From a virus: a stretch of 25,229 nucleotides of DNA. Below the pieces are notes generated by a model. The model was given only the letters and a program-made list of their open reading frames with translations, was not told the DNA's origin and searched no databases. The stretch is taken from positions 1 through 25,229 of the IMG/VR virus record IMGVR_UViG_3300032092_000222. One strand, given 5' to 3'. Each line of letters begins with the position of its first letter. Positions within the stretch are counted from its first letter, which is position 1. Of the stretch, positions 14,061-23,123 are shown piece after piece. The position numbers and the translations under genes are program-made.

Positions 14061-14663
14061 ATGAATACGATCTACAAGGTATCTCCGCTTCTCACGAAGT
14101 ATGAGCTGAGGAGCTATCCGGTCACGGTTCGCGTCAACAAGTTTGACGAAGATTCTGCAAAGACTTTCTGCCAGAAGATGAGTGAAGCTCAATCGACTGG
14201 ACAGAGCGTAATACCAGTGATAATCGATTCCTACGGGGGAGAGGTCTACTCCCTTCTCACCATGGTCGATGCCATCAAGTCTTCTCGCGTTCCAGTTGCA
14301 ACTATCGTGCAAGGGAAAGCAATGAGTTGTGGTGCTGTTCTTCTATCGTTCGGTGCTGAGGGCATGAGATTTGCCGGGCCTAATGCCACGATAATGATAC
14401 ACGAGGTGACTGGTGGATCTTTTGGAAGAACTGATGATATCAAGGTCGATGCCAAGCAGATTGAGAAGTTGAACGACAAGATCTTGTCGATGATCTCGAC
14501 CAATATTGGCAGAAGCAGCGGCTATATCAAGGAAGTGATCCATGAGAAGAATCATGCAGACTGGTTCCTCGATGCAGAGGAAGCAAGAATCATAAATCTA
14601 GTTAACTTCGTTAGAGTTCCTGAGTTATCTCTAACAGTTGATGTGAAATACAAGTTTGAGTAG
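14061..14663 (+). CDS. ClpP-like serine protease
   Basis: A 200-residue protein with GGGAGA ahead of its ATG. It has the crotonase/ClpP fold signature: DSYGGEVYS (56-64), then GKAMSCGAVLLSFG with candidate nucleophile Ser89, MIHEV with His114, and ADWFLDAEEA with candidate Asp167. The Ser-His-Asp triad is therefore complete. The length matches ClpP (about 195-205). No ClpX/ClpA-like ATPase is encoded nearby, so it either teams with a host unfoldase or works alone on peptides. Phage ClpP-like proteins also act as head-maturation proteases, but those normally sit beside portal and capsid genes. Here the neighbours are nucleotide-metabolism genes, so a role in turning over host or early phage proteins is an alternative. 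Confidence 0.85.
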   Translation: MNTIYKVSPLLTKYELRSYPVTVRVNKFDEDSAKTFCQKMSEAQSTGQSVIPVIIDSYGGEVYSLLTMVDAIKSSRVPVATIVQGKAMSCGAVLLSFGAEGMRFAGPNATIMIHEVTGGSFGRTDDIKVDAKQIEKLNDKILSMISTNIGRSSGYIKEVIHEKNHADWFLDAEEARIINLVNFVRVPELSLTVDVKYKFE

Positions 14664-15006
14664 TAGAAAGATAGAGCTATTGATAAAAGTCGTATCATGG
14701 AGATTTTTCTCCATGATATACGGCTTTTCTGTTGCCTACATTTTCACTGGAAACATGGGTGAATCTGCAGGTATAGTTCTCATCACGGGAACAACTCTGA
14801 CTGTTTTGCAGTGGATGTTCGAGATAGCTTGGGACAAGATTGCAACCACGAGGATTAGAAATGCCGTTTCAGAACAACAAGGTAGAATTGATAGGTTGGT
14901 ACGGTGGAGACGAAGCTCACGCGCTGTCAGCTTGGACGAGCACGAGTCGAGATCTGACAGAGGAGAAGAAAGCTCGGATCCCAAGCCTCCTGAAAATGCT
15001 GGCTGA
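14656..15006 (+). CDS. DUF2061-like small membrane protein
   Basis: The frame opens with a TTG at 14656 overlapping the previous stop, and the first 62 residues resemble DUF2061. A basic LIKVVSWRF is followed by a hydrophobic segment, then FTGN, a second hydrophobic segment, and an EIAWDKI end (the usual family end is a W-containing HER.W motif). Two transmembrane helices are likely. The frame then runs for about 146 bases into the thyX gene in another frame, giving a polar Arg/Ser/Glu-rich tail with no family match. Either this tail is tolerated or the gene lost an earlier stop. The function of DUF2061 is unknown. Confidence 0.6.
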   Translation: MSSRKIELLIKVVSWRFFSMIYGFSVAYIFTGNMGESAGIVLITGTTLTVLQWMFEIAWDKIATTRIRNAVSEQQGRIDRLVRWRRSSRAVSLDEHESRSDRGEESSDPKPPENAG

Positions 15007-15496
15007 GAACGGACACGAGACACCGTTCGAGAAGAGCTCTCTTCACTTCCTTGTAACAGTCGACGCTGCTAGTCACGTGCACCTGTTAAAGCATAGAGTT
15101 GGCGTCTCTATTAACGGAGAGTCAGCGCGTTATAAAGAGTTGAAGGACGACAAATACTACGTCCCCCAAGACTGGCCCCTCGCTGAACAGGCGAAGTACA
15201 TAGCGTTCATGGAAGACGCTCTCATGCGTTACCACGATACGCTAGATCGTCTTGTCAAGGGCGGCATGGATCGTAAAAGAGCCAAGGAGTCTGCAAGGTT
15301 CTACCTCCCGTACGGGAACCAGATTACCATGGACGTCATGTTTAACTGGCGATCATTCAGCCACTTTCTTGGACTGAGAATGAAGCCCGATGCTCAGAAA
15401 GAGATAAGTGATATTGCTGAGTCAATGCTGCAGCTTGTAATTGATATTCCTGGTTCTCCTTTTGCTCACACGATAGATGCTTTTGGATACAAGTAA
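14861..15496 (+). CDS. thyX: Flavin-dependent thymidylate synthase
   Basis: I choose the ATG at 14861 (211 residues), with AGGA at 14851-14854. The in-frame TTG at 14840 lacks support. The protein has HETPFEKSSLHF (52-63) and the ThyX signature in the form KHR..S.NGESARY (77-91), then a SARFYLPYGNQ segment and a NWRSFSHFLGLR stretch. These bind FAD, dUMP and folate. It makes dTMP from dUMP with methylenetetrahydrofolate and reduced FAD. Its length is typical for the family (about 210-250). A second, divergent ThyX relative is encoded at 19131. The first 146 bases are shared out of frame with the DUF2061-like gene. Confidence 0.92.
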   Translation: MPFQNNKVELIGWYGGDEAHALSAWTSTSRDLTEEKKARIPSLLKMLAENGHETPFEKSSLHFLVTVDAASHVHLLKHRVGVSINGESARYKELKDDKYYVPQDWPLAEQAKYIAFMEDALMRYHDTLDRLVKGGMDRKRAKESARFYLPYGNQITMDVMFNWRSFSHFLGLRMKPDAQKEISDIAESMLQLVIDIPGSPFAHTIDAFGYK

Positions 15497-16322: not shown

Positions 16323-17561
16323 ATGTGGATTCCACCTAAATCCCCGTACAATCTTGTTCAAGAGAAGCTATATCACGATCCTTGGCGGATTTTTGTGGCA
16401 TGCATCTTCTGTAACCTCACAAAGAGGATACAGTCTGAGCCAATCATGTGGAAGTTCTTCGCAAAATATCCTACGGCGAATGATGCAGCTGCAGCAGAGC
16501 ACCAGGATGTCGTTGATATCGTTTCAGACCTGGGGCTAGGAAAGAAAAGAGCGACTGCTCTCATAAGAATGTCTCAGGATTTCATCTCCAAGAAATGGCA
16601 GTGCGATCCCAGGGGCAGTCTTTACGCTGTAGGTAAATACGCAGAAGATGCTTACAGGATATTCTGCGTAGGTGACTGGATGAACGTTCATCCACAGGAT
16701 CACGCTCTCAATGATTACCACGACTGGCTCTGGAAGAATTACGAGGAGGATACTCTGATGCCTGAAGGTCCTGAGTGCAGAACTGTAGCCGATGGGCTTA
16801 ATGAAAGGCTAAGCGGAAAGAAAATCACTTGCGTGAACATCATATCTGGGAGATATTCTCGTCATGGTGATCCCGAGGGGATGGCTGACTTCCTCTCTGC
16901 GCTTCCTGCAAAGGTTGTTGGTGCAAACTGTCATGGAAAGTTCATCTTCGTTGTCCTCGACAACGGATGGAATATCTGGTGCACTCTCGGCATGACAGGA
17001 TCATGGCGGACAACGCAATCAGATCATGCTCGTGTCGAGCTCGTGGCTGAAGATGGATCTGTCTTCTTCACTGACATGCGAAACTTTGGAACACTCTCTT
17101 TTGTGAAGGGAGTTGCACCTCTGATGCAGAAGATTAATCAGCTAGGTCCAGACATGCTTGTTAGAGATCTCACAGACGATGAATTCGGAAAACGAATCAG
17201 AAAGTATAACAAGACTATCTCCGAGGTGATCATGGATCAATCTGTGATAGCAGGAGTAGGAAATTATCTTAAAGCAGAGTGTCTCTACTTTGCAAAGATT
17301 TCTCCTCACAGGACTTGTGGCTCACTGACTGATGCAGAGGTTTCCTCTCTCAACACAACCATCAGAAATACGATCAGGTTGTCATACAGGATGGGCGGTA
17401 CCACTATTAAGAATTACACAAATATCAATGGCGTAGTTGGGCAATACAGTTCTAGGTTTGCAGTGTATAGTCAGAAGAAGGATCCACTGGGAAATCCTGT
17501 CATCAAGGAGAAGACCGAAGATGGCAGAATGACTCACTGGGTCCCAAACATTCAGAGGTGA
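16323..17561 (+). CDS. Double DNA glycosylase: MBD4-like HhH-GPD domain fused in frame to Fpg/Nei
   Basis: A 412-residue frame holding two complete repair enzymes. Residues 1-143 closely resemble the catalytic domain of animal MBD4: PPKSPYNLVQE..HDPW at the start, a helix-hairpin-helix with LGLGKKRA, GKYAEDAYRIFCV, and VHPQDHALNDYHDWLW with Asp126 at the catalytic position. That family removes T or U from G mismatches and 5-hydroxymethyluracil. Residues 146-412 are a full Fpg/Nei enzyme (MPEGPE start, DMRNFG, the GVGNY H2TH loop). The finger region has no Cys, so it is a zincless finger like those of NEIL1-type proteins, and it keeps the Arg of GRMTHW. Fpg/Nei enzymes need a free N-terminal Pro, which the fusion blocks. 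See the separate internal-start entry. Confidence 0.88.
   Translation: MWIPPKSPYNLVQEKLYHDPWRIFVACIFCNLTKRIQSEPIMWKFFAKYPTANDAAAAEHQDVVDIVSDLGLGKKRATALIRMSQDFISKKWQCDPRGSLYAVGKYAEDAYRIFCVGDWMNVHPQDHALNDYHDWLWKNYEEDTLMPEGPECRTVADGLNERLSGKKITCVNIISGRYSRHGDPEGMADFLSALPAKVVGANCHGKFIFVVLDNGWNIWCTLGMTGSWRTTQSDHARVELVAEDGSVFFTDMRNFGTLSFVKGVAPLMQKINQLGPDMLVRDLTDDEFGKRIRKYNKTISEVIMDQSVIAGVGNYLKAECLYFAKISPHRTCGSLTDAEVSSLNTTIRNTIRLSYRMGGTTIKNYTNINGVVGQYSSRFAVYSQKKDPLGNPVIKEKTEDGRMTHWVPNIQR
16744..17561 (+). CDS. Probable separately translated Fpg/Nei glycosylase (internal start at 16758)
   Basis: The interval includes the RBS. An AGGAGG at 16744-16749 stands 8 bases before the ATG at 16758, which begins MPEGPE in the same frame as the upstream MBD4-like domain. 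Initiation here gives 267 residues, the normal Fpg/Nei length. It also exposes Pro2, the Schiff-base nucleophile that must be N-terminal after Met removal, with Glu3 as the catalytic acid. Lys61 corresponds to the conserved Lys of the family. The product should excise oxidised bases and nick the abasic site. Free Nei, fusion, or both may be made. The SD could in principle be chance, because GAGGAGGAT also encodes Glu-Glu-Asp. Confidence 0.7.
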
Positions 17562-19130: not shown

Positions 19131-20072
19131 ATGCCGCAAGACACCACTCTTAAGCCCATCACCCTTCCCATGGCTATCCGCTTTAACGAGAAGCCAACAA
19201 CCGATTTTGTCAACAGCCTCGATGCTCTCAAGCTTGAGCTTGTTGATAGTCCTGATCCTAAGACGATTCGCCAGGCAGTCTACTGCTTCGTTAAGTCGAC
19301 TTGGGCTGACCAGCACGTTCCATACGGCGATGCAACAGATGCTGATCTTTCCAAGACCATGGAAGACGTGTTTGCAGGTCGTGCACTTCCAGCAGCGATG
19401 GAGTTGATTGGTCTTACCTTCCTCGTGGGAGGTATCGATACACAGACTGTTACTCATCTCATCCGTCATCGTGCCGGATCTTTTGCTGCACAGTGCACGG
19501 GTGACCGCTGGCTCTCTCACGAGCGCAGCCTGGTTCCCGGTGCCATCCAGAACAGCCCAGAGTTCTACGCTCGCTGGCAGTCACATGTTCAGGAGGCGAA
19601 GGAGCTCTATGCAGACATGGTCGATTCTAAGACCATTAGCCTGATGGATGCACGTCACGTCCTTCCCAAGTGCCTTGAGACCTTCTACTACATGCGCATG
19701 AATATTCGTGACGCATTCGGTTTCATCAAGCAGCGCCAGGACAAGCAGATCCAGCCTGAGGAGGATAACATGCTTGCAGCACTCATGGCACGTGAGATCC
19801 TCAAGGTGTTCCCAGAGGCGCACGTAGCAATCAACCTTCGTGAGCCTGCTTGGCACTACATCAAGACGTTCCGCAATGGTACAGGTACCAACCTCTACTG
19901 GCCTGATGAGGACAGCGAGAAGCACCTCACCTACCATCCAGACGACACGATCTATCAGGCAACACGTGACGACATGAACGGCACTGAGGGCGGTGTCCCG
20001 CATTTCCGTGCGCTCTGGAATGAAGTGCTGGCTGATATAGACAAGCTTGTTGCCGACTACAAGAATCGATAG
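19131..20072 (+). CDS. Divergent ThyX-family protein (second copy)
   Basis: A 313-residue protein with CGGAGA as SD. It keeps the ThyX layout: VTHLIRHRAGS (107-117), then ARHVLPKCLETFYYM and NIRDAFGFIKQRQDKQIQPEED. These match the folate/FAD/dUMP-binding helices of ThyX. The signature differs from RHRxxSxNExSxRY: after RHRAGS it reads FAAQCTGDRW, so the Asn and second Ser are lost and a Cys (122) appears. The protein is about 100 residues longer than the canonical ThyX at 14861. A phage needs only one thymidylate synthase, so this paralogue may act on another pyrimidine nucleotide or add a different group, or be a regulatory relative. The codon choice (CTC, CGT, AAG, GAG) suggests high expression. 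Confidence 0.75.
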   Translation: MPQDTTLKPITLPMAIRFNEKPTTDFVNSLDALKLELVDSPDPKTIRQAVYCFVKSTWADQHVPYGDATDADLSKTMEDVFAGRALPAAMELIGLTFLVGGIDTQTVTHLIRHRAGSFAAQCTGDRWLSHERSLVPGAIQNSPEFYARWQSHVQEAKELYADMVDSKTISLMDARHVLPKCLETFYYMRMNIRDAFGFIKQRQDKQIQPEEDNMLAALMAREILKVFPEAHVAINLREPAWHYIKTFRNGTGTNLYWPDEDSEKHLTYHPDDTIYQATRDDMNGTEGGVPHFRALWNEVLADIDKLVADYKNR

Positions 20073-21206: not shown

Positions 21207-23123
21207 ATGGCAACAATCACCAATACCAAGCTCTCACAGGGCCAGATCAAGGGCACGGGCAAGGATCATCTCGGCGCCGAGCTCTCTGCTGTTGAGTCTG
21301 CAATCGCAGGCGCACTCGGCAAGGCAGGATACGAGGGTGGTGCAGACATCAACCTGAAGGACCTCGGCGAGATGGTTGACGGCAATGCAGCTGGCATGAC
21401 CCTCAAGGTCGACGTTGCAGCAGGCGGCTTTGACATCACCGGCGCAGGCGAGATGGCAGCTGGCGTGGGCAGATTCGGCAACACCTCAGCAGGCATCCTC
21501 ACAGCAACTTCAGCTGCTGTGTCCGGCGTGGCAACAGTCGGTGGATCATTCGACGTCAACGGCGCAGCAACACTCGCATCAGTCACAGTCGAGGGAACAT
21601 CAGCTCTCGTTGGTAATGTGAATGCAAGCGGCAACGTCACAATCGCAGGCGACCTGTTCGTCAACGGCACACAGACCGTGATGAACACAGCACAGGTCGA
21701 GATCGAAGACGACCACCTCGTCATCGCCAAGGGCAAGCCCTCACTGGTCGGCGGCGAAGGCTTCGCACTCGTGTCTGACGCTGGCACCCACTTCATGCAC
21801 TGGGACGTCTCCAACAAGTGGAGCATCTCTGACGGCGTCAAGTCTGTCGACTTCAAGGCCGGCGACAAGATGCTCGTCGACAGCATGGGCGTTCACGGCT
21901 CAGCTGACGGCCTCGCACTCGACTCAGCAGGCAAGGTGCAGTTCAAGGACAGCTTCATGACATCACCCATGGACCTCAGCAAGACCGGTGAGTACGCACC
22001 AGTCTTCGGCGCAGGCTCATGGGCAGCTGGCCTCGGCCTCATCGGCGCCCTGAACAAGGTGCGCACTGACTCCGGTGCAAGCCTCCTCGCAGCATCTGGC
22101 ACACTCGTTGCAGCCCTCGACGCCGAGCGCCTCCGCGCAATGGCAGCAGAGGCAGCTCTCCAGGCCGAGATCGACGCAGAAGAGGCAGCCCGCGCTGCAG
22201 CAGACACAGCACACGACGCAGCAATTGCAGCAGAAGTTGCAGCTCGCATCGCTGGTGACGCAACTCTCACCACAAACCTCGCTGCAGAGGTCTCACGTGC
22301 ACAGGCAGCCGAGAGCGTTCTCAACGGCAAGATTGCTACAGAGAAGTCCCGCGCAGAGGCTGCAGAGCTCGTTCTAACCAACGGACTCGCCGCAGAAATT
22401 GCAGCTCGCATCGCTGACGTGAACTCCGAAGAGTCACGTGCTCTCGCCGCAGAGGCAGTCCTCGACGGCAAGATCGTTGCAGAGGCCAGCCGTGCCCTCG
22501 CCGCCGAGACCGTTCTCGATGGCAAGATCACAACCGAGAAGAACCGTGCAGAGGCAGCTGAGCTCGTTCTAACCAACGCTCTCGCAGCTGAGGTCACACG
22601 CGCCCAGGTTGCAGAGGCAACTCTCACCACAAACCTGGCAGCTGAAGTCACCCGTGCTCAGGGCGCCGAGGCAGTCCTCGACGGCAAGATCTCAACTGAG
22701 AAGGCACGTGCAGAGGCAGCCGAGCTCGTTCTGACCAATGCTATTGCAGCAGAGGTTGCACGTGCACAGGCAGCAGAGGCAGTCCTCGACGGCAAGATTG
22801 CACAGGAGACAACACGTGCTGTTGCAGCAGAGGGCGTCCTCGACGGCAAGATCACCACACTCAGCACCAAGATTGCAACACAGGCAACACGCATCTTCGT
22901 GGCTGTGGTCCCCAATGGACCAGACCTACAAGCAGACAGCGACCTCACCGGTTACTCCGCCGCAGAGTTCGTCATGCCCGCAGGCAAGGTAGCAACAAAC
23001 TACGACGTGTACCTCAACGGCCAGCAGATGATCTGGAATTCCGACTTCGCATTCGTGCTCGGAAAGATCCAGTTCAAGTTCGTCCTCAAGCCCGGCGACG
23101 TGGTCCGCTTCCGCGAGTTCTAG
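21207..23123 (+). CDS. Long coiled-coil tail-fibre/virion protein
   Basis: A 638-residue protein with GGAG at 21197-21200. Residues about 60-150 are a Gly/Ala/Val-rich repetitive beta region (G.F..NG.ATLASVTV type), followed by a D.LVI..G segment common in phage fibres. Residues about 300-560 are a long coiled coil built from degenerate repeats of roughly 20 residues reading AEAVLDGKI..E..RA.AAE. The final 60 residues end with YDVYLNGQQM and KIQFKFVLKPGD, the beta motif also seen in the 20122 gene. It probably forms a trimeric fibre or appendage. Codons are strongly biased toward C- or G-ending forms and GCA, unlike neighbouring genes. With the structured leader and terminator, this suggests a highly produced virion protein. 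Confidence 0.75.
   Translation: MATITNTKLSQGQIKGTGKDHLGAELSAVESAIAGALGKAGYEGGADINLKDLGEMVDGNAAGMTLKVDVAAGGFDITGAGEMAAGVGRFGNTSAGILTATSAAVSGVATVGGSFDVNGAATLASVTVEGTSALVGNVNASGNVTIAGDLFVNGTQTVMNTAQVEIEDDHLVIAKGKPSLVGGEGFALVSDAGTHFMHWDVSNKWSISDGVKSVDFKAGDKMLVDSMGVHGSADGLALDSAGKVQFKDSFMTSPMDLSKTGEYAPVFGAGSWAAGLGLIGALNKVRTDSGASLLAASGTLVAALDAERLRAMAAEAALQAEIDAEEAARAAADTAHDAAIAAEVAARIAGDATLTTNLAAEVSRAQAAESVLNGKIATEKSRAEAAELVLTNGLAAEIAARIADVNSEESRALAAEAVLDGKIVAEASRALAAETVLDGKITTEKNRAEAAELVLTNALAAEVTRAQVAEATLTTNLAAEVTRAQGAEAVLDGKISTEKARAEAAELVLTNAIAAEVARAQAAEAVLDGKIAQETTRAVAAEGVLDGKITTLSTKIATQATRIFVAVVPNGPDLQADSDLTGYSAAEFVMPAGKVATNYDVYLNGQQMIWNSDFAFVLGKIQFKFVLKPGDVVRFREF
22240..22870 (+). repeat. Degenerate tandem repeats coding for the coiled coil
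   Basis: Near-identical DNA blocks recur in frame. GCAGTCCTCGACGGCAAGAT occurs three times (about 22457, 22673 and 22783), with a GGCGTCCTC variant near 22835. GAGCTCGTTCTAACCAAC occurs near 22366 and 22560. CAACTCTCACCACAAACCT occurs near 22260 and 22618. These mark internal duplication in the fibre gene and could recombine to change fibre length. Confidence 0.7.

Follow-up and report, generated by a model that had tools for sequence, protein, structure and literature searches.

In human MBD4, the glycosylase domain is located at the C-terminus, behind a methyl-CpG-binding domain (PMC4176167). Among the Fpg/Nei glycosylases, in the NEIL enzymes the nucleophile is the secondary amine of the proline at the N-terminus and the proton donor is Glu3 (PMC12499884), and zincless fingers are known from the mimivirus enzyme and NEIL1 (PMC3188539). 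Phage endolysin genes give a long and a short product by means of an in-frame internal start (PMC9430671). Here, we analyzed a 25,229-nucleotide stretch of viral DNA (IMG/VR record IMGVR_UViG_3300032092_000222, positions 1 to 25,229; hereafter, the window), in which a single open frame without an internal stop (16323–17561, plus strand) encodes 412 residues.

Residues 2–142 showed full-length homology to the glycosylase domain of human MBD4 (PDB 4dk9 and others; E 5e-49), including the HPxDHxLNxYHDWLWxN tail; in the window protein this domain is N-terminal and followed by Nei, whereas MBD4 has its own at the C-terminus. Residues 146–412 aligned end to end with mimivirus Nei1 (PDB 3a42 and 3vk7; E 2e-49), the closest Fpg/Nei enzyme, whose finger likewise lacks the four zinc-binding cysteines; mimivirus Nei1 stands alone without a preceding glycosylase domain, whereas the window Nei follows one. 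Related environmental phages (L007, L018/L008, L019, L014, L015, L009, and others) have the same glycosylases in the same order and genomic place, and, as in the window, a Shine-Dalgarno (SD) sequence and a start codon directly precede Pro-Glu. In these phages, however, a stop codon separates the HhH gene from the Nei gene, and the window lacks that stop. Like the endolysin genes, the window locus has an SD and a start codon within a single frame and a shared stop, but two products have been demonstrated experimentally for the endolysins, where the scheme is frequent (PMC9430671), whereas those of the window are predicted for a single case known from sequence. Overall, the window carries a merged repair-gene pair with its second start retained, and internal in-frame starts as such are already known. 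The preliminary description of this DNA had named no described example; long and short products of one phage gene are already known from endolysins (PMC9430671).

Two glycosylase domains and an internal start signal

The HhH half ends in an MBD4-like tail (YHDWLWKNYEE, versus YHDWLWENHEK in human MBD4). The Pfam HhH-GPD model scored barely at the cut-off, while the match to MBD4 was unambiguous and assigns this half to the HhH-GPD fold. D126, located within HPQDHALN, aligned with the catalytic aspartate of MBD4, and both D126 and Y106 were among the invariant residues of the phage HhH family. No methyl-CpG-binding domain was present among the Pfam or PDB matches of the fused protein. Judged from these alignments, the HhH half is a relative of the MBD4 glycosylase domain, not an MBD4 protein.

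Within the Nei half, PF01149, PF06831, and PF21025 (Fapy, H2TH, and C-terminal, respectively) all scored above the cut-off, and Pro2, Glu3, Lys61, and Asn169 were conserved. The finger, mimivirus-like in having no set of four cysteines, ends DGRMTHWVPNIQR. Comparison of the window with its sister phage gave pS values of 0.88 and 0.73 and pN values of 0.13 and 0.22 for the HhH and Nei halves, respectively; by this measure, both halves are under purifying selection. In an AlphaFold model of the 412-residue form (mean pLDDT 91.1, pTM 0.66), both domains were confident and the junction block was weaker (approximately 67); the model is compatible with a folded protein and silent on activity.

The MBD4 and mimivirus Nei1 alignments agree with the preliminary description, which had claimed two complete glycosylases in one frame. 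Its limits for Nei (146–412) were retained, but its MBD4 end at residue 143 was not, because the homology stops at approximately residue 142, which leaves residues 143–145 as the linker (Table 1). The AGGAGG that it had placed 8 bases before an ATG, exactly at the Nei domain, was also found in the window sequence.

Table 1. Features of the merged frame and its junction in the window
Feature	Position	Strand	Remark
MBD4-type HhH-GPD glycosylase domain	16323..16748	+	Residues 1-142; MBD4 match and phage-family conservation
SD (AGGAGG) of the Nei gene	16744..16749	+	Inside HhH codons 141-143
Linker Asp-Thr-Leu	16749..16757	+	3 codons (residues 143-145) from where MBD4 homology stops to the Nei ATG
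TGA overlapping the ATG (TGATG)	16756..16758	+	Another frame; the L019 HhH gene ends at such an overlap
Fpg/Nei glycosylase	16758..17561	+	267 residues from the internal ATG; mimivirus Nei1 and Pfam matches
TGA within the Pro-Glu codons	16763..16765	+	Third frame; HhH end in most overlapping relatives (8-base overlap)

The junction, within 16700–16800, reads GAGGAGGATACTCTGATG. Eight bases lie between AGGAGG (16744–16749) and the ATG at 16758, where Met-Pro-Glu is encoded; these residues form a protein N-terminus only if translation begins at the internal start. The SD pairing of this start (−11.8 kcal/mol) was the strongest among the window starts examined, compared with −2.8 kcal/mol for the start at 16323. 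At the junction, TGA codons at 16756 and 16763 close the remaining two frames; relatives have their HhH stops at these positions. Equally strong AGGAGG-ATG signals occur by chance, also in frame, within two further ORFs (15609 and 19759), so the motif alone is weak evidence and was rejected as stand-alone proof of a start; it is the comparison with relatives that makes the internal Nei start credible. Retained SD and ATG sequences could also persist for some time after falling out of use.

Separate genes and a conserved Nei start in relatives

A search with the ThyX protein encoded 1.6 kb downstream retrieved 12 syntenic loci; together with L007 and L008, whose contigs are identical to those of L016 and L018, they amount to 11 independent relatives with both genes. 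The query was the second of two ThyX-like thymidylate synthase ORFs (14840–15496 and 19131–20072, named from their translations) that the window carries within 25 kb. Other ORFs, named by eye, were a 638-residue ORF of the window (21207–23123) with many AEAVLDGKI-like repeats, perhaps a tail fibre, and, in the sister phage (L007:999-2033), a glutamine synthetase-like ORF of 344 residues at the place of window positions 14061–14663.

HhH preceded Nei in all 11 independent syntenic relatives, with a stop codon between the genes or inside their overlap. The genes overlapped by 8 bases in L018, L009, and L010 and by 1 base in L019, and were separated by 8–14 bases in L007, L011, L014, L015, and L020. 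About 750 bases separate HhH from Nei in L012 and L013, and in none of the close relatives. The more distant L001:3001-3977 and L002:3001-4202 have the reversed order, Nei then HhH, with the genes touching or overlapping by 1 base.

Scans with family alignments (best 80 matches each) yielded 84 distinct Nei loci and then 126, one contig having entered the larger set twice (approximately 125 distinct). One scan (A5) used a Met-Pro-Glu pattern and was biased towards ordinary starts, a bias absent from another (A3). Pro2 and Glu3 were kept in all 126 related Nei loci among the matches listed, and nearly all relatives carried an SD immediately upstream of the Nei start. The start codon itself varied among ATG, TTG, GTG, ATT, and ATC; that Pro-Glu always follows nevertheless indicates that selection holds the position of the Nei start.

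This conservation bears on whether the window makes a long, bifunctional protein alone, its Nei half tolerating an N-terminal extension or proteolysis freeing the proline. One open frame and a linker in which the structure model is least confident are consistent with such a protein, as is the short N-terminal extension of the L085 Nei. Nevertheless, we consider it highly improbable: the nucleophile of Fpg/Nei enzymes is the N-terminal proline amine (PMC12499884), the other loci retain Pro-Glu immediately behind the start codon (125 of 126 loci among the matches listed), and the retained strong SD would be left unexplained. The L085 relative (L085:2450-2510) reads MPKNDNESNEPPPEGAEV, the extension replacing Met-Pro-Glu.

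An upstream in-frame extension of at least 60 residues was found in the window only, among the 126 related Nei loci in the matches listed. A conserved fusion was rejected, as viral scans with the whole protein, each half, and the family alignments gave no second case among the matches listed. Relatives of both Nei and HhH were present in cultured phages, but no record covered 80% of the query; the nine relatives on bacterial genome contigs included no fusion. One bacterial match, L158, resembles phage DNA within a MAG. When Fpg was surveyed across 120 bacterial genomes, only a few long open frames emerged, their lengths being stop-to-stop. No viral protein in the BFVD structures spanned both domains, and none of the papers searched described a fused MBD4-Nei protein.

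These results also weigh on a true two-product gene, in which selection maintains the long form, perhaps for an MBD4 enzyme that uses Nei only to bind DNA, while the ratio of long to short form depends on the internal start. Both halves are intact, both fold confidently in the long-form model, and the in-frame scheme is the one found in phage endolysin genes (PMC9430671), but the fusion occurs in no relative among the matches listed and the internal start is older than the fusion. With the fusion confined to the window in this set, there is no sign of selection for it, and we regard this reading as improbable. We give slightly less credence to the full version, in which one frame supplies a long MBD4-Nei protein, its Nei nucleophile switched off by the fusion and its Nei half left to bind DNA, as well as active Nei made separately from the internal start, in a selected ratio.

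The proposal that an N-terminal proline needs its own start, made in the preliminary description, was thus strengthened by the conserved Pro-Glu (126/126) and the nearly universal SD among the matches listed. The same matches showed that the SD and start of the arrangement are conserved in other phages and that the fusion is not. Its suggestion that one message could yield a long form lacking Nei activity and a short form possessing it found no support as an evolved arrangement, no relative being fused among the matches listed.

Predicted AUU and AUC starts in related Nei genes

Among the 84 Nei loci in the matches listed that were retrieved by their internal motifs, 10 had ATT or ATC starts, and in eight of these no ATG, GTG, TTG, or CTG was present upstream in the open frame. 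A pattern scan recovered further Nei genes with such starts, and at least 14 changes between ATT/ATC and ordinary starts were counted on the Nei tree. An ATT or ATC codon immediately ahead of the catalytic proline codon, nearly always with a GGAGG-type SD, was recorded at 16 loci (L007:4468, L011:3648, L024:2501, L034:2501, L038:2501, L046:2501, L052:2501, L058:2501, L067:2501, L071:2501, L203, L226, L234, L214, L242, and L228). Since the catalytic proline has to come right behind the start codon, these predicted starts are better placed than by annotation alone. The Nei family thus offers a rare route to true start codons via chemistry, and predicted AUU/AUC starts recur in related phages.

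Probable origin and predicted products of the merged frame

The sister phage (L007/L021) has an HhH protein 79% identical to that of the window, and its genes are unfused. A tree built from 121 Nei proteins paired the window with this phage (support 99) amid a large unfused set, and this nesting points to the fusion as one event on the window branch. The HhH end reads AATCACTAGGAGG in the sister phage and AATTACGAGGAGG in the window. In the sister phage, a TAG stop precedes the SD and Nei starts with ATT. Because no relative among the matches listed is fused and the sister phage has this stop and start, the internal start is, from the comparison, the ancestral Nei start, the one that Nei normally used when it was still a gene of its own.

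The same comparison raises the question of a sequence or assembly error, in which the real phage has two genes and a base at the HhH end is wrong or missing. A single assembled contig shows the fusion, which is unique among approximately 125 loci in the matches listed; to close the HhH frame at the junction, an indel or the substitution of one base in any of codons 140, 141, and 142 would suffice, and when the two phages are compared with the SD as the anchor, the sister TAG corresponds to GAG in the window. However, MBD4 homology continues in frame to residue 142, which confines an indel error to approximately 9 bases, and the junction stretch is not a homopolymer. The HhH-Nei spacing also differs between the window and the sister phage, implying that more than one change separates the two. 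We consider an error unlikely, although it deserves more weight than the other alternatives. The fusion probably reflects stop loss on the window branch or, less likely, such an error.

Our preferred explanation, to which we assign a probability of roughly 70%, is that a two-gene repair cassette merged by loss of the HhH stop and that free Nei is still made from the ATG at 16758. The cassette would comprise a gene for an MBD4-type thymine/uracil glycosylase followed by an Fpg/Nei gene, kept separate in related phages, where the two frequently overlap or lie almost end to end and the Nei SD is at or within the HhH end. On the window branch, the HhH stop would have been lost in a frame that happens to match that of Nei, merging the two frames. 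Initiation at 16323 would then run through to the 412-residue protein, whose MBD4 half is expected to be active; its Nei half would be expected to show neither glycosylase/lyase activity nor Schiff base formation, since the proline nitrogen would be locked in a peptide bond. The retained SD would direct initiation at ATG 16758 and yield the 267-residue Nei, in which removal of methionine would expose the catalytic proline. As the SD, ATG, and Pro-Glu are the free-Nei signals of every relative, free Nei is most likely still produced; we infer the use of both starts, and the activity of each product, from these signals.

Overall, the locus looks like an early gene fusion, in which overlapping genes merge and the second start stays. 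A fusion expected to block an N-terminal nucleophile need not cost the enzyme when the second start is retained.
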